DNA from: a virus | Reading direction: 5' to 3' (one strand) | DNA length: 27,630 bases | Virus record (IMG/VR): IMGVR_UViG_3300037089_000362 | Span: 1-27,630 of that record | Part shown: positions 2 to 23,683 of the stretch, in pieces | Layout: each line of letters starts with the position of its first letter | Numbering within the stretch: position 1 is the first letter of the stretch | The notes under the pieces: generated by a model | The model's input: the letters and a program-made list of their open reading frames with translations, nothing else | What the model was told of the DNA's origin: nothing | The model's database searches: none | Made by a program: the position numbers and the translations under genes

Positions 2-1201
2 ACAAGTTGGAATAATGGGTTTATTCGACATGCAGACGGCACCTTTGAAACATATTCTATACCTGATATTGGGTTAGGTTCACTTGGTAGCACTTGTATA
101 AATAATAGTGGGGTAATTTCTGGATACTATCTTGATGGTGATGATGTGTCCCATGGGTTTTTACGAGCAACAGACGGTACAATTACAACGGTAGATGCTC
201 CCGGTTCAGAACAAATTTTTGGACACGGAACTTCAGTTAATCGGCGCAGCCTTGATGATGATGGGAATATGGCCGGAATTTTTACTAATGAAGTTGCTCC
301 CGGAATTCATTATTTTGTTCGTCATCCAGATGGGTCTTTCGATATATTTGACACAGGTTCAAACTACGGTCAACTTAGCATTAATACCCACGCTAATACT
401 GCAATTGGATGGTATTTTGACGCTGCTTTATATCAACATGGGTATTTAAACACTCCAATTACACAATTAGTTAGTGGTGGAACTTATGACCCTACTAATC
501 CTAATGTACCTGAAATTGGTTTCCTTAGAGATGGTAGTGGAAATATTACTTATTATCAAGCACCTGATGCTTATTTAGGGGTTGATGGTGGAACTGTTCC
601 AACTGATTTAAATGGGTTGACCTTACCACCACCTATATCCCTTCGTTGTGCATCTGGAGAAGGTGCCCTTGATGAAGCTTATTCATCATATTTAATTGCA
701 TCAGGTGGAACTACTCCATATTTTTTCTCAATTATTGATGGAATTTTGCCTCCCGGATTATCGTTAAACTCTAGTACAGGGCTTATTAGTGGTATTCCTT
801 CTAGACCCGGAAATTACCCTTATACTGCACAAGTAGTAGATTCTGCTTCTCCTCCAAATGTAGCTACTGCTTCTTGTAGTATTTTTATAAGTGTTTTTAC
901 TTGCTTTCTAGTTGATTTTCCAATTAATGGGCCATTTTATGATGCCACAGGGAAAGTGTTAAGTAATGGATATTTAGCTTTACGCCTAGTTTTTGATTGT
1001 AATTGTCCATGCGCTGATTATCAAATTACTGGAAATAACCATACAACTATACAATTAGATTCTAATGGGATGGTAACAGGTTCCCCACAAATTAGACCCA
1101 ATGATCAATTAAAACCTAATGGGTCATATTATATTCTACAAGCATTTTCAGAAGCAGGACAACTTGTACTTGGCCCTAAGGTACTTTTAGTAACGAGTTA
1201 A
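2..1201 (+). CDS. Fibre-like protein with HAF-like repeats and an Ig domain (5' end outside window)
   Basis: The frame is open to the left window edge, so the start is missing and 399 residues are visible. The first ~190 residues hold about five repeats of the pattern HGFLR..DGT...D.PG followed by GYY.D, which resemble the HAF-type extracellular repeats common in predicted secreted Acidobacteriota proteins. Residues ~213-301 form a putative Ig domain of the He_PIG type (PPGLSLNSSTGLISGIPS core). The last ~90 residues are a separate module ending in YYILQAFSEAGQLVLGP, which recurs in the next gene. The position just upstream of the tail nozzle-like gene suggests a tail fibre or other virion surface protein; that role is inferred. 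The stop lies 2 nt before the next start. Confidence 0.8.
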   Translation, partial: TSWNNGFIRHADGTFETYSIPDIGLGSLGSTCINNSGVISGYYLDGDDVSHGFLRATDGTITTVDAPGSEQIFGHGTSVNRRSLDDDGNMAGIFTNEVAPGIHYFVRHPDGSFDIFDTGSNYGQLSINTHANTAIGWYFDAALYQHGYLNTPITQLVSGGTYDPTNPNVPEIGFLRDGSGNITYYQAPDAYLGVDGGTVPTDLNGLTLPPPISLRCASGEGALDEAYSSYLIASGGTTPYFFSIIDGILPPGLSLNSSTGLISGIPSRPGNYPYTAQVVDSASPPNVATASCSIFISVFTCFLVDFPINGPFYDATGKVLSNGYLALRLVFDCNCPCADYQITGNNHTTIQLDSNGMVTGSPQIRPNDQLKPNGSYYILQAFSEAGQLVLGPKVLLVTS

Positions 1202-2302: not shown

Positions 2303-5300
2303 TTGCAATTAGCGGGTGCTCAGACAAATAAACAAACGCGCTTCACTCCCATTTATACGGGCCGATGGTCAAGCGGCATTTGGACAAATCGCTCGCCCCT
2401 GCGGGACGCGAACACTACGCGCTTAGTAGAAAAATTTTATGGGCCAAGTGGCGATGCGTTAATCGCAGGGTTAAACGTAGAAATTACTAACCGATTAACA
2501 TTAGCACGTCGTCCGGGAAATATTATATTCGATAATGAGACTTGGGATTCTATTAATACTTTTTATGAGTTTCATGCCTTTCATGGTTTTGCAGGACAGC
2601 AACTAAAAGAGCACATTCATATAATGATTGATGATCCTGATAGTCTCTATTCTCTTGTTGTAGGAGAATCTCGTGATTTACTCTGGACAAAAAGTGCTGG
2701 TGCTGGTCAAACTTATATGCAGGGAGTGGGAAACTCTTTATACTTCGGTAACGGGGTAGATAATAAAAAATGGCTTCACCAAGTTTATTTATGGGCACCT
2801 AATGAGGATTGGACAGGAGCATCAACACCTGTATTAAGTACGTTTGTTGAAGATGATAATAATAACATTCAACAGTTAACAGTACAAGGTGTTTCTGGCG
2901 CAACTGTACCCATTTGGAGTACAATCGTACCCAATGTGAGTAACAATTTCTTAGGAGGAACAACAATTGATGGAACTGCTCAATGGGTTAATAGAGGGCC
3001 AAGAGTCGAAAATTGGGGAATTGTTGCTCCTACTGCTACTTTAGCTCCTGAAATTGCCTCTGGTGGGGTAGCATGGCAACCTAATACAGTATTTTCACAA
3101 GTTGGGGTTGTAATTGATAGTAATGGTAATTTACAAAAAATAACCACTGCTGGTAAATCAGGGACTAACCCTCCTACATGGGCAACTAGTGTAGGATTGA
3201 CCACTAATGATGGTACTATAGTTTGGACTATGATTCAAACAGCCGCATCTTTAATTTGGCAACCACATACTGTTTATCCAATTGGAAGTTATGTGGTTGG
3301 TAACGGATGTCTATTTCAAGCACAGAATAATGGAACTGCAACTATCAGTGGTACAGTAAATGCTTATGTTTGGCCAAGCGTCGGTAATAATGGCCAATTT
3401 TCACGTTTATATCCTCTAAGTACTGGAACTGCATCAGCGTCAGCAACTAATAATTCATTTCAATTTCCATTAACTTATCCTACATTTACCCCCATTGAAT
3501 GGAACACTTTAAATGGAGCAGGGGAAGTTACCGGAGCGACGACACCATTTCCTGCATTTACATTCGGCTATGACATTGCTGTTTTAGGAAGTATTAATGT
3601 GCCTATAGCTGGTAACTGGCAAGTCACACTAAACGCTCATCATGATGGGGCTATTTTAGGAATTGGTGGTGGAGCTATTAAAGTGTCTGGTGTGCTTACT
3701 GACCCATATAATCACAGCCAAAGTGCCGTTGGTGGATATCCTATTATGGGAGGAACCAATTTAGGTAATGCAGGAACTACTACTACCGACGGTATGGTAG
3801 TTAATTTTCCCGTTGCTGGTGTTTACCCTATTGAAATGGACTATGCGTTTGATGGTCATAATGGGCCAGCAGAGATTCAGTTTTTGCTCCAAGGAAACCC
3901 CCCGGTTCCAGCACCAGCAGAAAGCGGTACAAATGAACCTGCATGGCCAGCGTGGAGTCTTGCATACGCTCCCGGTTATCCCTCTATCGAAGAGAGCATA
4001 GCAGCACAATTTCTGTGGTGTAATTTTGGGCCAATTGCCGATTTTCAATGGATTGCTAATGCTAACTATAAATTAGCAGGAATAGGTATTATTGATCCCA
4101 ATGCTAATACTGAATACGCATATCGTACAGGTTTGACTGGAGCTACAGCACCGACATTTGCCACAGGATTATATCAATTAACATTAGATAATCCAAACCT
4201 TATTTGGATTAATTATGGCCCTATTGTTGCTCCTCCTCCCGGCACACTTAGTACTTTTAATGGAGGTTGGAAATATTGTATTGCATTAGTGAATACGCTA
4301 GATAATACAGTATCGAATGCTGGAAAAATATCTGCTGCTACTGGAAACTTTATTGGAGTACCGGGAATATTTTTACCTCCGGGAAGCGGATTAGATGTAA
4401 ATGCAATTGACCCACAAGCTGATTATGTTGCTATATTTAGAACTACAGATGGTCAAAGTGTGCCATTTTTGATTCCCGGATTTATAACAGAAGGTTCCCC
4501 TGCGACACAGATAGCTGTGCCATGGACTGTTCCATTGCACACCTATTTAACTGCTGGATATACAGATACAGCAACGGATGAAGATTTAAATAACCTTATT
4601 AGTGCTCCATTGTTAGGACAAAATACTCCTCCGGGTAGAGGAGCAATTAATTTAGCATTTCATTTAAATAGAATTTTCTTTAGTATTAATAATACAGTAT
4701 ACTGGACAAGTGGGCCTGATACTCCTGCGGGAAATGGTATTAATGGAGTATCTCCATTAAATATTGATACTGTTCCTTCTACAGTAACTCGTATAGTTCC
4801 TACTGCTATTGGAGCGTTAATATTTACAGTAGATTCAACTTGGCTAATTCAAGGTTCTGGTACTCAATCTAGCCCAATTCAAGGTAGTATTCCATATTTA
4901 CCGACGATTGGCTTGCGAACTTATAATGCACTGGATATTGATGGTTCTATTATAGGATTGTTTACTACAGAAAAACAGTTTATTATTTTAGACCCTTCTG
5001 CCGGTACAGTAGATGCTGGATTTCCTATTGGTAATAAATTTAGATTAAACAACGGTTTGCCGGGAGAATCATGGGATGTTTCAAAGGTATATGTTACATG
5101 TCACACTGAGGGTGAAGATCATGCATTTTATGTATGCGATGGTGTTAATGGTTGGTATCGTTTAATGCCTACTCCGTCACCTGAGGTTGGCTATACTTGG
5201 TCACCTTTTGCCTATATTAATCAAATTGGCAATATTAGCCTATTTATTGGTACAGGTTGTAAATGTATTAAAAGTGTAGAGGTTTCTTTAGGAGTACAGA

Positions 5301-5752
5301 AGCTACTAATTGGGCCTTTAGTTACAGGGCCAATTTTAAATAGAGACATTGATACATTTACAGATGCTGGTGTGCCTTATCCTGCAAATGCAACTATTGG
5401 TTCTGCTGTATTAGCACAACCGGGACAATTAGCATTAGTAATGTTTATAACTACCGATTCTGTACGAATTGGAACACCATTGAATTTAGGTCTTTTACTT
5501 GATGAGGCTTTGCCTTATTATACAGGGCCAATTGAAATATTTAAACAATGGGAAAGTGATCCAATTAACATTTCTCCGGGTGATCAAGGAAGTTCTTCTA
5601 TATTAGGTCAGAGATTCTATTTAGATGAAATGAAGGAATTGGCAGCAGTTTGTAGACATATGCAGGTACAGATTTTGTGGTCTGATACTGATAGTGTTCA
5701 AAATGAATTACAAACATTAAGCATTTTTGGTGGCTTTATAGCGGAATTGTAG
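2303..5752 (+). CDS. Tail nozzle/hub-like protein with inserted carbohydrate-binding-like domains
   Basis: An 1149-aa virion protein. The N-terminal part (NRLTLARRPG, then VGNSLYFGNGVDNKKW) and the C-terminal ~380 residues (VYWTSGPD, LNIDTVPSTVTRIVP, GALIFTVDSTWLIQG) resemble the beta-propeller nozzle proteins of podoviruses (T7 gp12 and P22 gp10 types); this is pattern recall, not a search. Between them are repeats of the W.P.TVF....GT.PPTW form (~165-345) and a PA14-like segment (~395-530, with GNWQVTLNAHHDG), plausible glycan binders. The start is doubtful. The frame is open from 2258 with no ATG or GTG. TTG at 2303 is used here, but ATT at 2291 lies 8 nt behind AGGGG (2278-2282). Position before the internal virion proteins fits T7-like order. 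Confidence 0.75.
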   Translation: MQLAGAQTNKQTRFTPIYTGRWSSGIWTNRSPLRDANTTRLVEKFYGPSGDALIAGLNVEITNRLTLARRPGNIIFDNETWDSINTFYEFHAFHGFAGQQLKEHIHIMIDDPDSLYSLVVGESRDLLWTKSAGAGQTYMQGVGNSLYFGNGVDNKKWLHQVYLWAPNEDWTGASTPVLSTFVEDDNNNIQQLTVQGVSGATVPIWSTIVPNVSNNFLGGTTIDGTAQWVNRGPRVENWGIVAPTATLAPEIASGGVAWQPNTVFSQVGVVIDSNGNLQKITTAGKSGTNPPTWATSVGLTTNDGTIVWTMIQTAASLIWQPHTVYPIGSYVVGNGCLFQAQNNGTATISGTVNAYVWPSVGNNGQFSRLYPLSTGTASASATNNSFQFPLTYPTFTPIEWNTLNGAGEVTGATTPFPAFTFGYDIAVLGSINVPIAGNWQVTLNAHHDGAILGIGGGAIKVSGVLTDPYNHSQSAVGGYPIMGGTNLGNAGTTTTDGMVVNFPVAGVYPIEMDYAFDGHNGPAEIQFLLQGNPPVPAPAESGTNEPAWPAWSLAYAPGYPSIEESIAAQFLWCNFGPIADFQWIANANYKLAGIGIIDPNANTEYAYRTGLTGATAPTFATGLYQLTLDNPNLIWINYGPIVAPPPGTLSTFNGGWKYCIALVNTLDNTVSNAGKISAATGNFIGVPGIFLPPGSGLDVNAIDPQADYVAIFRTTDGQSVPFLIPGFITEGSPATQIAVPWTVPLHTYLTAGYTDTATDEDLNNLISAPLLGQNTPPGRGAINLAFHLNRIFFSINNTVYWTSGPDTPAGNGINGVSPLNIDTVPSTVTRIVPTAIGALIFTVDSTWLIQGSGTQSSPIQGSIPYLPTIGLRTYNALDIDGSIIGLFTTEKQFIILDPSAGTVDAGFPIGNKFRLNNGLPGESWDVSKVYVTCHTEGEDHAFYVCDGVNGWYRLMPTPSPEVGYTWSPFAYINQIGNISLFIGTGCKCIKSVEVSLGVQKLLIGPLVTGPILNRDIDTFTDAGVPYPANATIGSAVLAQPGQLALVMFITTDSVRIGTPLNLGLLLDEALPYYTGPIEIFKQWESDPINISPGDQGSSSILGQRFYLDEMKELAAVCRHMQVQILWSDTDSVQNELQTLSIFGGFIAEL

Positions 5753-6969: not shown

Positions 6970-7356
6970 ATGATTACTGATAGACTCTTACAAGCATCTG
7001 ATTATGAATTGTTAAATGAATCTTTAAAAAAAGATGAATTTCATAAAACTACTACACCAGAGTTCTTTACTCAAGAAGGAACCATTACGAAACTCTACTC
7101 TCTTGATGGTGAACCTGTATTATTTTGTAGAGCCTGTAAGAGTTTGCGTTTAGATGCACAGTTTTTAGATAACAATAATGTGCAAGCTAATCGGAAAACT
7201 CTAGAACAAGGATTTAAAGAGGTGGAACAAAAGGCTAAAGAAAATGGCTTTATTGAGGTTTTATTTAATACTTCAAATCCCTTGTTTAAACGCTTTGCGA
7301 CTAGAAAATTAGGTTATACTGTTGTTGAAGGTGATGAGCTAAGAAAGGTTCTGTAA
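6970..7356 (+). CDS. Small GNAT-like (N-acetyltransferase fold) phage protein
   Basis: The 128-aa product has the look of a short GNAT fold: an N-terminal LLQASDYELLNESLKKDEFH segment, central strands (PVLFCRACKSLRLDAQFLD), a long helix (GFKEVEQKAKENGF) and a C-terminal SNPLFKRFATRKLGYTVVEG, which resembles the final GNAT motif. The acetyl-CoA loop (Q/RxxGxG/A) is not obvious, so catalytic activity is uncertain. Similar small GNAT-like genes occur among podovirus tail genes, with unknown substrate. The stop overlaps the next ATG as TAATG. Confidence 0.65.
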   Translation: MITDRLLQASDYELLNESLKKDEFHKTTTPEFFTQEGTITKLYSLDGEPVLFCRACKSLRLDAQFLDNNNVQANRKTLEQGFKEVEQKAKENGFIEVLFNTSNPLFKRFATRKLGYTVVEGDELRKVL

Positions 7357-13138: not shown

Positions 13139-13291
13139 ATGAAACCTTATCAATATCCAGAACTTCAAGAGAATCAACACGATAGTGGCATACTTGACAA
13201 CAAATGGTTTTTTCTATATACTAAAGAATACCGTGTAAGAAAAGGATTGCACGTATTTTGTCATAATAGTTACTGTAAAATGTGCAATTAG
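13139..13291 (+). CDS. 50-aa protein, function unknown
   Basis: A small open frame filling most of the gap between the last virion gene and the lysis-like cassette. It begins MKPYQYPELQ and ends HVFCHNSYCKMCN. Three cysteines (41, 46, 49) near the end could bind metal together with the neighbouring His. No Shine-Dalgarno precedes the ATG, but an extended -10 promoter sits exactly 6 nt upstream, which supports translation of a leaderless message. A second strong promoter (13194-13222) lies inside it, and its TAG stop touches the ribosome-binding site of the next gene. The alternative is that this stretch is only a regulatory region. Confidence 0.5.
   Translation: MKPYQYPELQENQHDSGILDNKWFFLYTKEYRVRKGLHVFCHNSYCKMCN
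13194..13222 (+). promoter_or_regulatory. Near-consensus sigma-70 promoter for the lysis-like cassette
   Basis: TTGACA (13194-13199), exactly 17 nt, then TATACT (13217-13222). A start near 13229 would leave a leader of about 80 nt carrying two purine-rich ribosome-binding sites (AGGAGG at 13290-13295 and AAGGAG at 13299-13304) ahead of the ATG at 13311. It lies inside the 50-aa open frame. Confidence 0.7.
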
Positions 13292-14339: not shown

Positions 14340-15107
14340 ATGGAGGAAGTTAAGAGTAAACGCTATGCTGTATTGTTTGACATTCATTACCCAAAATACC
14401 ACAAAGCAGCTTTTGGGGCTGTAATGGACTTTCTAAGTCACAACAAGATGGATGGAATTACATTAGGTGGTGACCAGTTGGATATGAATTCTATATCTCA
14501 ACATACTAAAGGAAAAGCATTATATAAACTTCCCGGTTCGTACATGCAGGATATAGAGGGATTTGATAGAGATATATTGACTCCATTAGAGTCTGTAGTA
14601 AAAACCAATCGTGTTTATATTATTGGTAATCACGAAAGGTTTGAACAGGATTTAATTGAACAGCAACCGGAACTACAAGGCACAGTTGACCATGTAAAAT
14701 GGCTACGATTAAAAGAAAGAAATTGGAAGGTTATACCATTAGGACATTGTTCTAAATTGGGACATTTAATTGTGAGCCATGGCGAGATATTATCAGAATA
14801 TGGTAATGGTGGGCAATATCCTGCAAAGAAAGCAGTGGAATTGTATGAAAATTCAATTTTATGCGGACATTCCCATGCCGCCCAAAGTTATACTAAAATC
14901 TCTCCCGTTGAGCACATTAAAAAGCATATGGGATTTATCAGTCCTAGTCTTTGTAATATAAACCCCTCTTATTTGAGAAACAAACCTGTGTCTTGGAATA
15001 CAGGGTTCAATATAGTAGAGGTTATGCCTAACGGCAATTTCTGTTTATATCAAATTATAATTACAGGGGGGAAATTTAGTTGGAATGGTGTTATTTATGG
15101 AAAATAA
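14340..15107 (+). CDS. Calcineurin-like metallophosphoesterase
   Basis: A 255-aa enzyme with the complete dimetal motif set: D14-I-H16, GGD45, G-N97-H98-E, S-H147-G and G-H177-S-H179. It should hydrolyse a phosphomonoester or phosphodiester; the substrate cannot be told from sequence. Phage members are often DNA or nucleotide phosphatases, but the lysis-cassette neighbourhood gives no clear hint. AGGAGG directly precedes the ATG. Its last 23 bases overlap the start of the HNH gene. Confidence 0.85.
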   Translation: MEEVKSKRYAVLFDIHYPKYHKAAFGAVMDFLSHNKMDGITLGGDQLDMNSISQHTKGKALYKLPGSYMQDIEGFDRDILTPLESVVKTNRVYIIGNHERFEQDLIEQQPELQGTVDHVKWLRLKERNWKVIPLGHCSKLGHLIVSHGEILSEYGNGGQYPAKKAVELYENSILCGHSHAAQSYTKISPVEHIKKHMGFISPSLCNINPSYLRNKPVSWNTGFNIVEVMPNGNFCLYQIIITGGKFSWNGVIYGK

Positions 15108-15630: not shown

Positions 15631-16121
15631 GTGAACGTTGGGATAGAAAGTATCTTGAATTGGCAAAACATGTTTCTATGTGGTCACATGATCCTTCAAC
15701 TAAGGTCGGAGCCATTGTAGTCAATTGGGATTATCAACAAGAGTTTATAGGATATAATGGTTTTCCTAAAGGCGTATTCGATACGCCTGAACGCTATGCC
15801 AATAGAGAACTAAAGTATCAAATGGTAGTTCATGCAGAAGTAAATGCAATACGAAAAGCTGGACACTTAGCCAAAGGTTCTACTTTATATGTTTATCCTG
15901 CATTTTCCTTACCCCCGATTTGCAATAATTGTGCTAAGAATGCTATTCAAGCTGGCATAAAGGAAGTTGTAGGATATAACCCTGATCTTAATGATGAACG
16001 AGTTAAACGCTGGTTACAATCCATTGAAGTTTCACAGACAATGTTTAAAGAGGCAGGAATCACTTGGAGAAGTTTAGATGAAGATAAAACACCTATGTGT
16101 ACTACTTTTACTATTACTTAG
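15624..16121 (+). CDS. dCMP deaminase (deoxycytidylate deaminase family)
   Basis: A 165-aa enzyme converting dCMP to dUMP, the precursor of dTMP. The zinc motif is complete: H70-A-E72 (VVHAEVNAI) and P-I-C100-N-N-C103. The N-terminal SHDPSTKVGAIVV is typical. I start it at the ATG overlapping the HNH stop region; a longer frame from 15582 would run inside the HNH gene. There is no good Shine-Dalgarno, perhaps because the HNH insertion replaced the original leader. Its 3' end overlaps the next gene by 44 nt and carries that gene's ribosome site. Confidence 0.9.
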   Translation: MVSERWDRKYLELAKHVSMWSHDPSTKVGAIVVNWDYQQEFIGYNGFPKGVFDTPERYANRELKYQMVVHAEVNAIRKAGHLAKGSTLYVYPAFSLPPICNNCAKNAIQAGIKEVVGYNPDLNDERVKRWLQSIEVSQTMFKEAGITWRSLDEDKTPMCTTFTIT

Positions 16122-19100
16122 TTTTGGTTGGACGCAACAAACTCAAAACCCTGACCTTAAAGTTAATTTAAATGATTATGCGTTAGGGCTTGGCAGTGGT
16201 TCTTATACTTGCTATGATGGGGTAGTTAGAACTGGCAATCAGTGTCTTTCACAGTGGTTAAAAACCAGCGTGTATGTTATTAACCAAGCAACTTCTGGTT
16301 TTGACTGTACGACATCATATCCTAGTAGCTGGTGCATTTTATACTCTAGTAGTGTGCCTTATCAGAGTGCAATGTATTACATTAGAGATGCGGTAGGCGC
16401 ATCAAAATATGAAAATGCTATCTTACATTATGATATAGATGTTGGTGGATTACATGCATCTTCATTAATCGGAATGAATCAATTTGATTGGTTTGATCAA
16501 ATTCACGGATTAACAGAAGGGTTCTCCTATTATCACCCTGATGAAGCACAAAATGGTGTTTTACTTTATAATGGGTCTACTTTTGTTTCAGATATTACAG
16601 GCTATGCTTATGGTGCAGCTATTACTTCTGTTGGCTACAACAGTGGAACATTTACTTTAACAGGAATTGCCTCAGAGAATTTTATTAACATTGGTGCTGG
16701 AAGCGTCATTACACTCACTGGTTTTACTAGTGCAACCTTTTTAAACGGAAAAACAGCTACTGTAATTAGCTCTACAGGTACAATTATGACGTTTGCTTTA
16801 ACCTGCTCTGCCAATTGTACAGGCAGTAATGAGACAGGTTATATAGCAAAGGCCCAATTTATTCCGGCAGGAGATACTTTTTATATTGGGTTAATGGAGC
16901 CTTTTGACCATGTTAATGTGCGTCTAGCAGTTCCGCAACACGGTGGTTCTGTAACCTACCAATATAGTAAAGGTGCTGGTGTATGGGGAGACTTAACTAC
17001 AGCACTACATTGGAACGACGGTACTGTTGGCCTAACATCTGGTTTAAATGTTGCACAAATTAGCTTCTATCCGCCTACTGATTGGGCATCGGATACTGTT
17101 CATGGTACAAGGGCAAAGTTTTGGATAAGAATTATCCCAATTGGTGCCACTACTCAGCCTACTATTTTTAACCTTCGCGGTGACAATCTTTTATCAGCAT
17201 ACAGTAGTACCGCACAGTGCGGTACATTAGTGCAACAGCAAACAGGCACTAGTTGTTTATTACGTGGCTGGTCACAAGCTGCTTGGTCTGCTTCTACAGC
17301 ATGTAGTGGTTCACCATGTACCGTTGCAGGAACTTATGAATATAATCCTAACCCCCCTGTTGCTTCTAGTGCTCGTTTTATTTATCAAGCACGGACTGGC
17401 TTATATGGTGGATATGGGAACGAAACATGGCTTAACCCATCCACTTTAGATAATGATGGTAAAACTTTAGCTGGAAAAGTTCTTCCTGCATTATGGACAG
17501 CTAATAAAGTTGTCACTGGAATCGCTGCAAATGGAACGATGTTTGACAATGCAGCAACGACTAATTACGGTTATGGGGCAGCATGGAACGCTGGTAATCA
17601 AACTGATTTAGCCTGTTCTCCTAGTTGTGTAGACACGTTAGCTACTTCTAATTTTGAATCGTATTGGGCCACTGCTTTTGCTGAAACTAGTACTAATCTT
17701 CATACTACATATAGTCCGTTTTTTGTGGTTGGTAATGTGCAAATAGGTCACCCTACTTCGACAGAACTTAATACCAATCCATTTTCTACAAGTGGTACAA
17801 TGGCTAGAGTAGGATCAGTATTTGATTTAGCAGGGATAGAGGCAAGTGGCGCTGCGACTTCACAAGGCTATTTTAATTCATACCCACAAACCGCTGAAAA
17901 TCAATATACTGTTGCTTCTGGTTTTCAAGTAGCAAATGGAGTATCTGATCATCAATTCCAATTTGGTTTCTGTGATATTATTAGTCAAACCGTTCCTTGT
18001 TTACCCACTGTTTGGAACAGGGCAATACAAGGTTCAATGGCGGCATTGGCTGGTCAATACATATTTGGAAACAGTGACACTGATTTAACTTATACCATTA
18101 CCAGTGAGTCGTCATATACTGCTGGTGATCAAGGTTATTATGCCGTTGACTCTGGTGCTTTTCTTACTGTCCCAATTACAAGCGGATTACATGCTACGCC
18201 ATTTACTTTTTCTGTAACTATGACGACACCTTTAGTTGCTATGCTTAATAACTTGGGAGGATTAGGAACATGCGTTTCTCCGGGTTGTGGAACGGATAAC
18301 GTGTATGCAGGTGACATATTTGTTCGTATTTGTCCAACATCTACTTGTGAAACTGGTGATATTTTCCAAGTAACCACAACTGCTCCATATACTGTAACAC
18401 CAAACAGTAATGTGACTCAAAATGGTACTAGCTATGTTGCAGTTGCTAATAATTACATAGGTAATGAAAAGGTTCAAATTGTTAAATATTATCACGCTGC
18501 TTTAACCCCACTAGCGCAAGTGCCAGCGTGGAACAATATGATCCTTTATGCTAGTTTATCGCCAGCATTTCGTTTTGATATTGGTATACCTGATACGGTT
18601 AATGGTTGGCAACCTCCCAATGGAAACTGTATTTATAATGTAAATCATTCAACGTTTACTCAACCAACTACATCTTGCAATCATGGTGATCCCGATTTAT
18701 TCTACGGTGGTTCTGGAAGTACAGCATTTCGTGACTCCGCGCAAATGTGGTCTGGATTACCCTGTGTACTAGGTAAATATAATAGTCCACATGGTACAAT
18801 TAATATGGATTGTTCCCCTTTAATGCGACGTGATTATGTTACATCGTCTGGTCAACATGCAGTAGTGCTATTACGTTCATTTAGAACAGGTGGAACATTA
18901 CCAACAGCACCAGAAGAACTAATCACCCCAAGTAAACCAATTGCTCTTTCTAACTTTGAAGATGCCTGTACTCCTAATTGTTCATACCGTCAATTATTAC
19001 CAGATGGCACATTAGGTACTTCTATTAGCAGTATAACTATTGTAGGCGCAGGGTCAGCCATTTTAATACGCAACGGGGGTGGTGGAGGAACATTAGTTTA

Positions 19101-20256
19101 TAATGGCCCTTCAAGTTGCCCCAATGGTTATCAAAATTCAATATATACTGGATGCTTCCCATCAGCTTCTGGCGGTCAAACACCTTTTACATTCACCATT
19201 AACAGCGGTAGTTTATGTGCTGGATTGAACATTAATTCATCTACAGGAGCAATTACTGGAACTCCAACAATACCGGGAGTGTGTACTTTTGTTGTTAAGG
19301 TGACTGATTCAACATCACCGACACCCCAAACAGTTTTATCACCAACTTATACGCCAACTATTTACTATCCAGTGTTATCTATTACAACTCCGCCATGTCA
19401 ATCTGGAACTATTAATGTTCTATATGTAGGTTGTAATCAAACATATCAAGGTGGAAATGGAAACAATGCTTGGTCTGTTAATTCTGGAACGTTACCTAGT
19501 GGGTTACATATGGACTCAATGACAGGTGCTATTACAGGAACTCCAAATGCTTCTGGTACATTCCCATTCCAAATTAAAGTAATGGATAATGAAATTCCAC
19601 CACAAACTGCATTGGAGAATAATAGCATTACAATAAATGGGTCAGGTGGTATTATTATTACAACCACAACATGTCCAATTGGTAATCAAAATTCACTATA
19701 TAAATGTCAAATGATGGCTACAGGTGGAAGCCCTCCATATTTATGGAGTGTTACATCGTATAATGGTGGATTTGTAACTTGTGCTTCTGGTTTAACCTCC
19801 ATTAATCAAACAACTGGTGCATTTGGTGGAACTCCAACAATTCCAAAATCATGTACTATACAGGTAAAGGTTACTGATACAGTAAATAATACTGCTTTAC
19901 AGATTATTACAATTTTAATTCAATATCCTAAGTTAATAATCACTACTAATGTTTGCCCAACCGGATTTGTAGGACTTCCCTATAATTGTCAATTACAATA
20001 TCAAGGGGGGAATGGTGATAATATATGGGAAGTTATTTTAGGAGCATTACCTGAAAATTTAGGGTTAAACGTTAACACTGGAATTATCTCTGGTATACCT
20101 GTAATAATTGGTAACTCATTTTCGACAATTCAAATGACAGATACTGAAATACCTCCACAATCTTCTTCTATTCCGCTTGAAATGGAAATTAGAATAGGTA
20201 TTTTTAACAATCTATTTGGCCCCGGTATCTATGGTACAGGGATTATTTTACACTAA
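16078..20256 (+). CDS. Large secreted cysteine-rich protein with four C-terminal Ig repeats
   Basis: A 1392-aa protein starting with a Sec-type signal peptide (MKIKH, then LCVLLLLLLSFGW). The start is supported by GGAGAAG 5 nt upstream, inside the deaminase gene. The N-terminal ~1000 residues have no family I can name; parts look like beta-sandwich and a possible glycosidase-like barrel (MFDNAATTNYGYG; PFFVVGNVQIGHP), weakly. Residues ~1011-1375 are four He_PIG-type Ig domains, each opening with a close Cys pair (CPNGYQNSIYTGC; CQSGTINVLYVGC; CPIGNQNSLYKC; CPTGFVGLPYNC). Closely spaced cysteine pairs recur throughout, implying disulfides and an exported or extracellular product. It may be a receptor-binding, adhesin or polysaccharide-degrading protein. 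Confidence 0.8.
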   Translation: MKIKHLCVLLLLLLSFGWTQQTQNPDLKVNLNDYALGLGSGSYTCYDGVVRTGNQCLSQWLKTSVYVINQATSGFDCTTSYPSSWCILYSSSVPYQSAMYYIRDAVGASKYENAILHYDIDVGGLHASSLIGMNQFDWFDQIHGLTEGFSYYHPDEAQNGVLLYNGSTFVSDITGYAYGAAITSVGYNSGTFTLTGIASENFINIGAGSVITLTGFTSATFLNGKTATVISSTGTIMTFALTCSANCTGSNETGYIAKAQFIPAGDTFYIGLMEPFDHVNVRLAVPQHGGSVTYQYSKGAGVWGDLTTALHWNDGTVGLTSGLNVAQISFYPPTDWASDTVHGTRAKFWIRIIPIGATTQPTIFNLRGDNLLSAYSSTAQCGTLVQQQTGTSCLLRGWSQAAWSASTACSGSPCTVAGTYEYNPNPPVASSARFIYQARTGLYGGYGNETWLNPSTLDNDGKTLAGKVLPALWTANKVVTGIAANGTMFDNAATTNYGYGAAWNAGNQTDLACSPSCVDTLATSNFESYWATAFAETSTNLHTTYSPFFVVGNVQIGHPTSTELNTNPFSTSGTMARVGSVFDLAGIEASGAATSQGYFNSYPQTAENQYTVASGFQVANGVSDHQFQFGFCDIISQTVPCLPTVWNRAIQGSMAALAGQYIFGNSDTDLTYTITSESSYTAGDQGYYAVDSGAFLTVPITSGLHATPFTFSVTMTTPLVAMLNNLGGLGTCVSPGCGTDNVYAGDIFVRICPTSTCETGDIFQVTTTAPYTVTPNSNVTQNGTSYVAVANNYIGNEKVQIVKYYHAALTPLAQVPAWNNMILYASLSPAFRFDIGIPDTVNGWQPPNGNCIYNVNHSTFTQPTTSCNHGDPDLFYGGSGSTAFRDSAQMWSGLPCVLGKYNSPHGTINMDCSPLMRRDYVTSSGQHAVVLLRSFRTGGTLPTAPEELITPSKPIALSNFEDACTPNCSYRQLLPDGTLGTSISSITIVGAGSAILIRNGGGGGTLVYNGPSSCPNGYQNSIYTGCFPSASGGQTPFTFTINSGSLCAGLNINSSTGAITGTPTIPGVCTFVVKVTDSTSPTPQTVLSPTYTPTIYYPVLSITTPPCQSGTINVLYVGCNQTYQGGNGNNAWSVNSGTLPSGLHMDSMTGAITGTPNASGTFPFQIKVMDNEIPPQTALENNSITINGSGGIIITTTTCPIGNQNSLYKCQMMATGGSPPYLWSVTSYNGGFVTCASGLTSINQTTGAFGGTPTIPKSCTIQVKVTDTVNNTALQIITILIQYPKLIITTNVCPTGFVGLPYNCQLQYQGGNGDNIWEVILGALPENLGLNVNTGIISGIPVIIGNSFSTIQMTDTEIPPQSSSIPLEMEIRIGIFNNLFGPGIYGTGIILH

Positions 20257-20264
20257 GGAGACTC

Positions 20265-20618
20265 ATGAAATCAACTTTACTTACACTATTTATAATGCTT
20301 TTTTCATTAAGCATTTTTGCCCAAGCCCCAAGTAAACCTACAATACCCGGACTTCCTCCCGGAACTACTATGAGTTCAACTGGTTTAATTACAGGAACTC
20401 CAACTGCATTAGGAACCTATGTTGCTAATATCCAAGCATGTGATTCAGAGAGTCCAATACAATGCTCAGATATAACCCCGATTACTATTTCTGTTTATGG
20501 AGCAGTAGTGATTGGCCCACCGACCACATTACCTTTTGGTATTGTTGGAAAACCATATTCCCAACAGATTCCTATCTCTGGTGGTGTACCACCTTATACT
20601 GTCACCATTCAGCCGTAG
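20265..20618 (+). CDS. Secreted Ig-repeat fragment protein
   Basis: A 117-aa protein with a good signal peptide (MKST, hydrophobic LLTLFIMLFSLSIF, then AQA as the likely cleavage site). AAGGAG precedes the ATG. The mature part begins in the middle of an Ig repeat (PPGTTMSSTGLITGTPTALG) and ends in the first half of another (GKPYSQQIPISGGVPPYTVT), so it resembles a circularly offset piece of the repeats in the upstream gene. A pair of cysteines (ACDSESPIQC) matches the disulfide theme. The TAG stop abuts the -35 box of the next promoter. It may be a partner or decoy of the large protein, or a remnant. Confidence 0.65.
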   Translation: MKSTLLTLFIMLFSLSIFAQAPSKPTIPGLPPGTTMSSTGLITGTPTALGTYVANIQACDSESPIQCSDITPITISVYGAVVIGPPTTLPFGIVGKPYSQQIPISGGVPPYTVTIQP

Positions 20619-20647
20619 TTGACATTGAATCGAAACTATGATATCAT
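20619..20647 (+). promoter_or_regulatory. Sigma-70 promoter with extended -10, predicted leaderless
   Basis: TTGACA (20619-20624), 17 nt ending in TGA, then TATCAT (20642-20647). Six bases later comes the ATG at 20654, with no Shine-Dalgarno. It should drive the nucleotide-metabolism block. Confidence 0.7.
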
Positions 20648-20653
20648 GGGTTT

Positions 20654-20860
20654 ATGATGTCTCATAATGTTTGGAATGATTACAATCTAGCTGACACAGC
20701 CTCACGCTATCAAATTGGTGACGTGTTTCTTTATAATGAACGTTATTATAAACTATTAAAGAAAACTGTGAGTGCTGTGTCAGTAGAACGTTATTATTTT
20801 TGGAATCGTTTTGCAGATTGGATAGGAGGAAAACTTGGCATTAGAACAGACAGGAACTAA
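20654..20860 (+). CDS. 68-aa protein, function unknown
   Basis: First gene behind a near-consensus promoter and probably translated from a leaderless message, since the ATG lies 6 nt after the -10 box. The product is aromatic-rich (YQIGDVFLYNERYYKLLKK; YYFWNRFADWIGGK) with a basic tail. I recognise no domain. It overlaps the following gene by 26 nt and contains that gene's AGGAGGA ribosome site, so it may serve to couple translation. A second in-frame ATG lies immediately after the first. Confidence 0.65.
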   Translation: MMSHNVWNDYNLADTASRYQIGDVFLYNERYYKLLKKTVSAVSVERYYFWNRFADWIGGKLGIRTDRN

Positions 20861-21347
20861 AGGTGGAATTGTACGTCAATTCGAGACAGGGGCTACTAGA
20901 GACATTGATACGAACAAATATGATTATGAAGGATTTTTGTCTCCACTAGTGTTACAACGTTATGCAGAGTACATGCATGGTCATCGTAAGCAAAAAGATG
21001 GTAGCATTAGAGACTCAGATAATTGGCAAAAAGGGATGGAATTTTCAGTTTATATGAAGTCTCTTTATCGTCATTTTATGGATGTATGGAAGGGGCATCG
21101 GTCAACCTATACGGATAGTCATTATTTTGAAGATGCTTTGTGTGGAGTACTGTTTAATACAATGGGTTATTTGCATGAACATCTAAGAGCACGAGATTAT
21201 AAAGCACGAAAGGAATCAGGGGAAGATGAGACAGTGGATAAATATAATGATGTTTCTCCTGCTACTCCTGCACCCAAAACCAATGCTCAAAGCTTCTATC
21301 GTCCATCCCCAAGTTCTTACGATTTATCGGCACATAGGAAAAGCTAG
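20835..21347 (+). CDS. dATP/dGTP diphosphohydrolase-like phage protein
   Basis: The 170-aa product fits the phage dATP/dGTP diphosphohydrolase N-terminal domain pattern: FETGATRD (~16-23), NKYD, FLSPLVLQRYAEYM, then DNWQKGM (62-68), SLYRH (76-80), and FEDALCGVLFN (98-108). It would remove excess purine dNTPs, in keeping with the ribonucleotide reductase downstream. The TTG start is chosen because AGGAGGA lies just ahead. The last ~40 residues are low complexity (PATPAPKTN; PSPSSYD) and overlap the start of the RlpA-like gene in another frame, which may explain that composition. Confidence 0.7.
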   Translation: MALEQTGTKGGIVRQFETGATRDIDTNKYDYEGFLSPLVLQRYAEYMHGHRKQKDGSIRDSDNWQKGMEFSVYMKSLYRHFMDVWKGHRSTYTDSHYFEDALCGVLFNTMGYLHEHLRARDYKARKESGEDETVDKYNDVSPATPAPKTNAQSFYRPSPSSYDLSAHRKS

Positions 21348-21651
21348 TTGGTATGGGAAACAATTTCATGGAAAATTAACAGCTAGTGGTAAACGATACA
21401 ATATGTATGGTCTTACTGCTGCTCATCGCACATTACCGCTCGGTTCTTATATTAGAGTTACTAATTTAAGAACTAAGCGGTCTATTGTTGTCTGTATCAT
21501 AGATCGTGGCCCATGGATTAAAGGTCGCGCATTAGATTTATCATATGAAGCAGCTAGGAGGATTAACATGACAGGAGTTGATTATGTCGAGTACCATGTG
21601 GTCGCTTATCCTACTGTACATTATTCTCATTCTATTGGGGATGCTTTGTAG
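21226..21651 (+). CDS. RlpA-like peptidoglycan lytic enzyme with signal sequence
   Basis: The 141-aa product carries the double-psi beta-barrel of RlpA: KASWYGKQFHGKLTASG (39-55), LTAAHRTLPLGSYIRVTN (63-80), IIDRGPW (91-97) and RALDLSYEAA (101-110). RlpA enzymes cleave peptidoglycan glycan strands, so this may assist lysis or virion release from the periplasm. The N-terminus (MRQWINIMMFLLLLLHPKP) reads as a signal peptide or anchor and is encoded within the upstream gene, a 122-nt overlap. AGGGGAAG lies just before the ATG. In-frame ATGs at 21247 and 21283 are alternatives; the last would remove the signal. Confidence 0.85.
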   Translation: MRQWINIMMFLLLLLHPKPMLKASIVHPQVLTIYRHIGKASWYGKQFHGKLTASGKRYNMYGLTAAHRTLPLGSYIRVTNLRTKRSIVVCIIDRGPWIKGRALDLSYEAARRINMTGVDYVEYHVVAYPTVHYSHSIGDAL

Positions 21652-21817: not shown

Positions 21818-23683
21818 TTGAAAGACTGGAGTAATCTAGCCCGTATTATATACCGTCGCACTTACAGTAGACAACAAGAAAATGGACAATTAGAAAATTG
21901 GAATGATACATGTGAGAGGGTCATTGCCGGAAATGTAAAAGGACATAATGTAGATGAAAAAGAAGTGAAAAGGTTATTAAAGTATCTAAAGGAACGTAAG
22001 GCTGGCCCCGCTGGTAGAGGTTTATGGTTTTCTGGTGCTCCACAAGCAGATCGAATAGGTGGTAGAGCATTAACTAATTGTTGGTTCTTTACAGCAGATA
22101 AATTAGAAAACTATCTAATAGCCATGGATTTGTTGATGCTTGGTGGTGGAGTTGGATTAAGTGTAGAAAATCGTTTTTCTAGTAAACTTCCTAAAGTTAA
22201 AAAGAGTGTAGTAATTACTCACAAGCCAACTAAAGATGCTGATTTTATCATCCCTGACAGTCGAGAGGGATGGGTTAAATTATTAGAGTTGATTTTAGAG
22301 GCTTACTTTGAAACTGGTAAATCATTCTCTTATTCGACAATTTGTATTAGAGGCAAGGGAGAGCCGATTAAAGGATTTGGTGGTACAAGCAGTGGCCCTG
22401 TATCTATTGTGGGTTTTGTAGACACGTTAAGTAGTATATTAAACGCACGAGAAGGAAAATCTTTAAACCCTGTTGACGCTGCTGACATTCTAACAACTAT
22501 TGCTGAATTGATTATCTCCTGTAATATTCGACGTTCAGCTACTATTATTTTAGGTGATTGTTATGATAAAGACTTTCTTAAAATTAAAAGATGGGATTTG
22601 GGGGCTATTCCGGCTCATAGGGCCAATGCTAACTATTCTGTTGTTTGCGATGATGTGGATGATTTGCACCCATTATTCTGGAAAACTTATGAGTTTGGTG
22701 AACCATTAGGTATTGTCAATCGTAAAAATATCCAGAAATATGGACGGATGGGAGAGTTAAAAAAAGACACTGCGATTGGAACTAATCCATGTGCAGAGGC
22801 GACATTAGAAAGTGGAGAACCTTGTAACTTAACTGAAGAGGTTTTATCGAATCTAAAAAATGAAGAAGAGTTTATTGAATCTTCTCGATTAATGTGCCGA
22901 TACGCTCAACGAGTGACAATGGCTGACTATCACCATGACAAATGTAATGACGTAATTAGAAAGAATCGTAGAATAGGTATTGGTATTACAGGATGCTTAT
23001 CATCTCCGTTGTTTACTTCTGAGATATTAGATAGAGTCTATGGTGAGATTCAAGAAGAGAATATAGCCTATGCAAAGGAACTTGGAATTCCTCCGAGTAT
23101 TCGCACTACTGTTGTTAAACCGTCAGGTACGTGGTCTAAATTGGCCGACTGTGCAGGATATGATGGCGTTCATGCTACATATTCTCGCTATATGATTCAA
23201 CGTGTACGCTTCGCATCTAATGATCTTCTGGTGCCAAAACTAAAAGAAGCTGGTCATCATATCGAGCCAGTTATGAAATTTGATGGGTCTACAGATCGCA
23301 ATACATTGGTTGTAGACTTCTATATGGCTGCTCCTGAGGGTTATCCTGTAGCTGACGAGGATTTCTCTACATGGCAGCAATTAGACACCGTTTTGATGGC
23401 ACAGAAGCATTGGGCCGACCAATCAGTGAGCACTACAGTTTACTATAATAAAGAGGATATTTCACAGGTTAAAGAGTGGCTCTCTAAGAATTTATGTAAC
23501 ATCAAAACTATCTCATTTTTACTTCATAGTGAACATGGGTTTGCTCAAGCTCCTAAAGAAGCCATTACTAAAGAGCAATACGAGAAACTATCAGCTAAGG
23601 TTAAACCATTGCAGGAAGAAGAAATTCAAGAAGGCGAATTGGAGACTAATGAATGCCTAAAGGGAAGTTGTCCAATAAGGTAA
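21818..23683 (+). CDS. nrdJ: Adenosylcobalamin-dependent ribonucleoside-triphosphate reductase (class II, monomeric type)
   Basis: A 621-aa enzyme making dNTPs from NTPs with vitamin B12 coenzyme. Key cysteines match the Lactobacillus leichmannii enzyme: C88 (LTNCWFF, equivalent of C119), C325 (TNPCAE, C408) and C336 (GEPCNL, C419), with the same 11-residue spacing. The C-terminal redox pair C613/C618 (ECLKGSCPIR) has the same CX4C spacing as C731/C736. It is ~120 residues shorter than that enzyme, and the C88-C325 interval is also shorter, so allosteric parts may be reduced. The TTG start follows AGGAGA. Its last 31 nt overlap the HNH gene. Confidence 0.9.
   Translation: MKDWSNLARIIYRRTYSRQQENGQLENWNDTCERVIAGNVKGHNVDEKEVKRLLKYLKERKAGPAGRGLWFSGAPQADRIGGRALTNCWFFTADKLENYLIAMDLLMLGGGVGLSVENRFSSKLPKVKKSVVITHKPTKDADFIIPDSREGWVKLLELILEAYFETGKSFSYSTICIRGKGEPIKGFGGTSSGPVSIVGFVDTLSSILNAREGKSLNPVDAADILTTIAELIISCNIRRSATIILGDCYDKDFLKIKRWDLGAIPAHRANANYSVVCDDVDDLHPLFWKTYEFGEPLGIVNRKNIQKYGRMGELKKDTAIGTNPCAEATLESGEPCNLTEEVLSNLKNEEEFIESSRLMCRYAQRVTMADYHHDKCNDVIRKNRRIGIGITGCLSSPLFTSEILDRVYGEIQEENIAYAKELGIPPSIRTTVVKPSGTWSKLADCAGYDGVHATYSRYMIQRVRFASNDLLVPKLKEAGHHIEPVMKFDGSTDRNTLVVDFYMAAPEGYPVADEDFSTWQQLDTVLMAQKHWADQSVSTTVYYNKEDISQVKEWLSKNLCNIKTISFLLHSEHGFAQAPKEAITKEQYEKLSAKVKPLQEEEIQEGELETNECLKGSCPIR

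Follow-up and report, generated by a model that had tools for sequence, protein, structure and literature searches.

A soil phage of the Acidobacteriota appears to have captured a secreted bacterial protein from the exopolysaccharide (EPS) cluster of an acidobacterial host and to have fused four Ig-like repeats to its C-terminus, giving a protein that would act on the EPS or surface polymer of the host, a reading to which we assign a probability of about 0.6. The gene lies on a single IMG/VR viral contig of 27,630 bases, called the window here. The preliminary description of this DNA had recognised a secreted, cysteine-rich Ig-repeat protein and a smaller secreted companion, and missed that the N-terminal 1000 residues would be a captured bacterial gene and the Ig repeats an addition. 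The coordinates of all the features are collected in Table 1.

Table 1. Features of the exported gene pair and its surroundings in the window.
Feature	Position	Strand	Evidence or remark
Promoter-like site (11/12)	13194..13222	+	Upstream of the endolysin/lysis cassette
Metallophosphoesterase-like gene	14340..15107	+	Left border of the insertion; counterpart of larger phosphoesterase genes in related phages
Large exported protein, 1392 aa, whole gene	16078..20256	+	Open reading frame, ribosome site, Pfam
Sec-type signal peptide (predicted), residues 1 to ~20	16078..16137	+	Hydropathy against shuffles; host homologues alike
Host-derived region, residues 21-995	16138..19062	+	72-73% identical to the Acidobacteriaceae G001 exopolysaccharide-locus protein; 24 Cys, all kept in G001
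Invariant D490-N491, motif NGTMFDN	17545..17550	+	Same in the phage and three host sequences; candidate active-site acid
Invariant E588, motif FDLAGIEAS	17839..17841	+	Same in the phage and three host sequences; candidate second acid
Gly-rich junction (AILIRNGGGGGTL) where the host proteins end	19063..19092	+	Alignment
Four He_PIG Ig-like repeats	19093..20253	+	Pfam PF05345; repeat alignment
Small exported companion, 117 aa	20265..20618	+	Signal peptide, then He_PIG half-repeats
Promoter-like site (11/12)	20619..20647	+	Starts directly after the small-gene stop
Small conserved phage gene	20654..20860	+	Borders the insertion on the right; L027 has a similar ORF

The kind of phage is indicated by the 1149-residue protein encoded at 2303-5752, which is 54% identical over its full length to gp19 of the Tunturiibacter podovirus Tunturi_3 (PP885686). 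The structural, lysis and nucleotide genes of both phages, including the endolysin, the holin-like genes and the ribonucleotide reductase, are similarly ordered, although the exported pair lacks a counterpart in Tunturi_3. No lysogeny genes were seen within the window. The actual host of this soil phage is not proven, since the genomes of the donor genus hold no trace of its gp19-like protein. Within the structural block, an ORF at 6970-7356 is 42% identical to a Tunturi_3 gene annotated as an acetyltransferase. The class II ribonucleotide reductase gene is interrupted in roughly nine related phages (L049, L050, L052-L057 and L051) by about 0.3-1.1 kb near one site (residue 325-332; region 320-335), probably by introns or inteins that share a conserved position; in the window the gene is uninterrupted, and an HNH gene follows it at 23653.

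Homologues of the large protein were found by a scan of one genome per species, which yielded two Acidobacteriaceae MAGs (palsa_340, PMAT01000051, and palsa_354, PLYW01000276), and by a genome search, which added a third species (genome G117). The two MAGs encode the same protein from the signal peptide to residue ~996, and the likeness of all three to phage residues 21 to ~996 (55-73% identity) extends to the signal peptide and the cysteine positions. The phage sequence is 72-73% identical to that of G001, similarly close to that of G002 and ~55% identical to that of G117, and the host sequences share 79-84% (G001/G002) and 56-60% (G001/G117) identity with each other. They differ from the phage protein in stopping where its Ig repeats begin, in their gene neighbours and in GC content (~57% vs 40% in the phage). 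The closest relatives of the large protein are thus chromosomal genes of the host group and not phage genes, and by this comparison residues 21 to ~996 are of host type.

The family is carried by three of the nine species of one genus. It was found in no other of the ~398 Acidobacteriaceae genomes sampled, save for a short single-domain match in G172, no further members were found among 396 genomes sampled across the phylum, and none appeared in 50,697 phage records, plasmids or the viral contigs scanned by pattern. Matches at E 0.01-1 in 349 Terriglobia genomes were weak, short and scattered, and were set aside. The G172 match lies on an acidobacterial contig (L012, G172:C384), in a structural ORF of phage type that shares one beta-rich domain (36%) with residues ~180-270, a module that is thus found in both virion-type and secreted proteins.

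The host contig is chromosomal, as indicated by the presence of RNase J and BacA, and the neighbours of the host gene encode a Wzy-type ligase, a Wzx-type flippase, several glycosyltransferases, an NDP-sugar epimerase, a polysaccharide deacetylase and a hexapeptide acyltransferase. By gene content this is an exopolysaccharide-type (Wzx/Wzy-type) cluster. In all three species a second secreted Cys-rich protein is encoded near the host gene (L062:10954-13914, L064:11158-14049 and L007:2514-5444). This partner has 963-986 residues, at least 25 cysteines and a C-terminal domain of the Pur_ac_phosph_N type, is 78-87% conserved, has a distant paralogue (32%) at L063:12056-13210 and was not captured by the phage. 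The family itself diverges faster than its surroundings, with 56% identity between species against 78-88% for its neighbours, which fits a surface factor under conflict.

The large gene follows a ribosome site (GGAGAAG) and its product begins with MKIKHLCVLLLLLLSFGWTQQTQ, in which sequence and hydropathy reveal the positive n-region, hydrophobic core and small residues at -3/-1 of a Sec-exported protein of the signal peptidase I type. The 10-residue hydrophobic peak (3.25) tops every other stretch of the protein and lies above 99.9% of shuffles of equal composition (P 0.00075), and cleavage would probably occur between SFG and WT or between GWT and QQ. A similar signal peptide occupies this position in the host homologues, with AFA preceding QQ at the cleavage site, and we consider this agreement stronger support for export than any score. 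The small gene is likewise preceded by a ribosome site (AAGGAG), and its product starts with MKSTLLTLFIMLFSLSIFAQAP, whose hydrophobic core is weaker than that of the large protein (P 0.03 vs shuffles). The coordinates and reading frames given for the two genes were confirmed, and the proposal that both encode Sec-type signal peptides behind ribosome sites therefore stands, less firmly for the companion.

The large protein contains 37 cysteines, one within the signal peptide and 36 in the mature part. The preliminary description had reported closely spaced cysteine pairs along the whole protein, including one at the start of each Ig repeat. The latter part holds, since C-x(10-11)-C opens all four repeats; for the former, 14 gaps of ≤12 residues were found where 10.0 ± 2.3 are expected (P 0.066), a spacing not beyond chance, and conservation was used as evidence in its place. 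Between residues 45 and 968, the closest host homologue, with an overall identity of 71%, retains 24 of the 24 cysteines (P ~3e-4), and the most distant one, with 54.5% identity, retains 22 of them (P ~1e-4). Considering these host-conserved cysteines and the opening pair in every Ig repeat, disulfide formation is likely, and folding with disulfides outside the cytoplasm, as originally suggested, gains support from secreted host homologues that share the cysteines.

The host proteins end where the phage protein enters a Gly-rich linker (AILIRNGGGGG) leading into the four repeats, which locates the apparent fusion. Both the large protein (70.4 bits) and the small one (27 bits) exceed the curated cut-off of 24 for He_PIG (PF05345), a repeat that is abundant in Acidobacteriaceae proteins (related repeats occur in 107 of 150 genomes) and is found in some phage tail proteins. 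The phage repeats match it in sequence and length, and differ from the host repeats in the opening Cys pair (1014/1026, 1107/1119, 1199/1210 and 1293/1304), which was absent from all 60 He_PIG-like repeats sampled at ten Acidobacteriaceae host loci. Repeats 1 and 3 have a second Cys pair, ~22-24 residues apart, and the pairs r1/r3 (45% identity) and r2/r4 (41%) rank among the most similar. In the mature small protein, the latter half of an He_PIG repeat comes first and the initial half of a further repeat comes after it, which amounts to roughly a single unit with its halves exchanged. This protein may be a remnant of a longer repeat protein, or a unit completed by its neighbours.

In the phage, the metallophosphoesterase-like gene and the conserved gene at 20654 enclose an HNH-like gene, assigned by eye and without a Pfam match, a dCMP-deaminase-like gene (PF00383) and the exported pair. 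No exported Ig or Cys-rich protein is present in the corresponding stretch from the holin-like genes through the phosphoesterase to the ribonucleotide reductase in the syntenic relatives L027, L030 and Tunturi_3, and the pair thus sits as an insertion between conserved phage genes, as captured auxiliary (moron) genes do. The start of the large gene overlaps the end of the deaminase gene by 44 nt and the small gene begins 8 nt past the stop of the large one, so co-transcription of both with the preceding genes is probable. Only two promoter-like sites scoring 11/12 occur on the plus strand of the window (0.62 expected), and since they bracket the stretch from the lysis cassette to the small gene, the pair may form the end of the lysis transcription unit; this operon assignment is tentative because conservation of the sites in relatives is not clear. 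Farther on, an RlpA-family (DPBB) protein with a signal-peptide-like N-terminus is encoded at 21226-21651, a third possibly exported protein, whose ORF starts within the preceding gene in another frame with an overlap of ~120 nt; in the relative L035 an RlpA-like gene lies ~5 kb downstream of the ribonucleotide reductase.

The captured part has taken on the composition of its phage. Its GC3 is 0.23, compared with 0.66 in the host, and its codon usage correlates with that of the phage core genes at r 0.97, whereas the host gene gives 0.06. Synonymous change has reached saturation with pN at 0.19-0.32 (pN/pS ~0.2-0.33), which implies an old capture and a protein kept under purifying selection. 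A chimeric assembly with host DNA is excluded by these codon-usage and substitution figures. The phage copy falls among the host sequences, nearer to G001 and G002 than G117 is; with few sequences and no outgroup, this is suggestive, and not proof, of transfer from host to phage. That the gene is a functionless passenger, recently acquired or decaying, might be argued from its presence on one phage contig only and from the resemblance of the small gene to a fragment of a longer repeat protein, but 1392 codons remain intact after synonymous saturation, all the cysteines are kept and codon usage is fully adapted, which makes such a passenger scarcely credible.

Another possibility is that the protein belongs to the virion. 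The genes of tail fibres and spikes belong to the tail module and their products lack signal peptides, and the large gene, located after the lysis cassette and outside the tail module, fits neither description. The same phage supplies a within-genome control, as a He_PIG protein of its tail module (window 2-1201; 443 aa complete in L003) has no signal peptide, so virion-type He_PIG protein appears signal-less and the exported one is encoded elsewhere. An ordinary virion fibre is disfavoured for this reason, in line with the preliminary description, which had argued against an ordinary fibre and proposed comparing the position relative to tail genes in relatives; L027, L030 and Tunturi_3 lack the gene altogether. 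The secreted protein could instead stay on the surface or in the medium and at lysis decorate particles, or adhere to them through its Ig repeats, as an add-on depolymerase or adhesin. The He_PIG repeats of the tail-module fibre and the likeness of residues ~180-270 to a domain of the phage-like structural ORF in G172 are compatible with this, yet the gene is not part of the tail module and is missing from syntenic relatives, its N-terminus is a cleavable-looking signal peptide, no virion-docking domain was recognised and the host homologues stand alone in an EPS locus; we regard virion association after export as quite unlikely. The tail fibre itself varies among relatives: in L002, which is 98% identical in the gp19-like protein, its C-terminal part is unchanged and its N-terminal part is another one (L002:1210-3075 compared with L003:7568-8899 and window 2-1201), as expected of a receptor-binding protein and likely reflecting host-range diversification. 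By eye, the N-terminal repeats of the window and L003 fibres resemble HAF-type extracellular repeats.

Searches for an enzymatic fold gave no match of the host-derived region in Pfam (to E 10), NCBIfam, PHROGs or the PDB, and no significant match of the large protein to a glycoside hydrolase or polysaccharide lyase family. Profile comparison with a set of glycosidase sequences, GHL15-, GH114- and other glycosidase-like Acidobacteriaceae proteins, remained at noise level. AlphaFold runs on 977 residues with 4 close sequences and on 358 residues with 3, the G117 homologue being left out of the input, returned unusable models with pLDDT of 29.5 and 30.6, because homologues are too few. The motifs NGTMFDN (D490) and FDLAGIEAS (E588) look, as a reading of pattern, like strand ends of a glycosidase (TIM-barrel-like) barrel, and any enzyme activity of the large protein is guesswork. 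The polysaccharide-active role put forward earlier thus keeps circumstantial backing from the host exopolysaccharide neighbourhood, and lacks a recognised enzyme family or fold. A secreted enzyme that degrades environmental polysaccharide and feeds the infected cell would have precedents in the active GH5 endomannanase of a soil virus from a permafrost site (PMC6786970) and the active soil-virus GH75 chitosanase (PMC9485262), but the host gene belongs to an EPS biosynthesis cluster and not to a utilisation locus, and an enzyme family match is absent, so we consider such metabolic cargo very unlikely.

Our preferred reading begins with the capture of a secreted EPS-cluster gene from an acidobacterial host and the fusion of its C-terminus to four disulfide-stapled Ig-like repeats. 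The large protein would be made in the late (lysis) transcription unit, exported through the host Sec system and oxidised outside the cytoplasm, where it would bind or act on the EPS or cell-surface polymer of the host itself. The EPS context is that of the host gene, and we infer that the phage copy acts there too. The matrix could thereby be loosened for progeny release and spread, or the surface altered against re-adsorption of progeny. The Ig repeats may serve as a rigid spacer or a polymer-binding stalk, and the small companion as an accessory of the same exported system.

A related explanation is that the phage copy competes with or replaces the host EPS-locus protein and thereby changes the polymer, which would block adsorption by other phages or by the progeny of the phage itself on debris. 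Membership of the same family as that protein, and the faster divergence of this family (expected under conflict), point in this direction, but late expression is suggested by the place of the gene behind the lysis genes, a membrane anchor was not seen, and no known exclusion family was matched, as judged by the PADLOC defence models only, in which the exported protein found no match. We therefore hold exclusion by surface remodelling to be rather unlikely. More speculative, and slightly less probable still, is the idea that this genus-restricted, disulfide-rich EPS-locus family is a battleground between acidobacteria and phages, in which a host surface-polymer factor was taken, given disulfide-stapled Ig repeats and turned, from the extracellular side, on the host coat in order to convert or dissolve it; in its extreme form, the small companion, as an Ig unit cut in two with its ends exchanged, would complete the folds of its neighbours and so polymerise head to tail into a filament.

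That soil phages capture host carbohydrate-related genes is already known. The soil-virus auxiliary glycoside hydrolases mentioned above (PMC6786970, PMC9485262) are likewise host-type carbohydrate-related genes flanked by phage genes, whereas the large protein has no recognisable enzyme family, comes from an EPS-biosynthesis locus and is fused to Ig repeats. Glycoside hydrolases of exopolysaccharide clusters, a class that includes PelA (PMC9894940), resemble it in being secreted proteins encoded within an EPS biosynthesis locus, which serves as a working analogy only. What we judge to be new here is the capture of an EPS-locus protein of an uncharacterised family that has stayed an exported protein and has gained Cys-stapled Ig repeats by fusion.

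A phage of the poorly studied Acidobacteriota thus carries an ameliorated and selected host exopolysaccharide-locus protein that is apparently exported and not built into the particle. This offers a one-gene test of the long-standing question of whether phages remodel the extracellular matrix of their hosts via secreted non-virion proteins. It also provides an entry to an uncharacterised EPS-cluster family, together with a natural experiment in which the host form can be set against the phage form with its Ig stalk.
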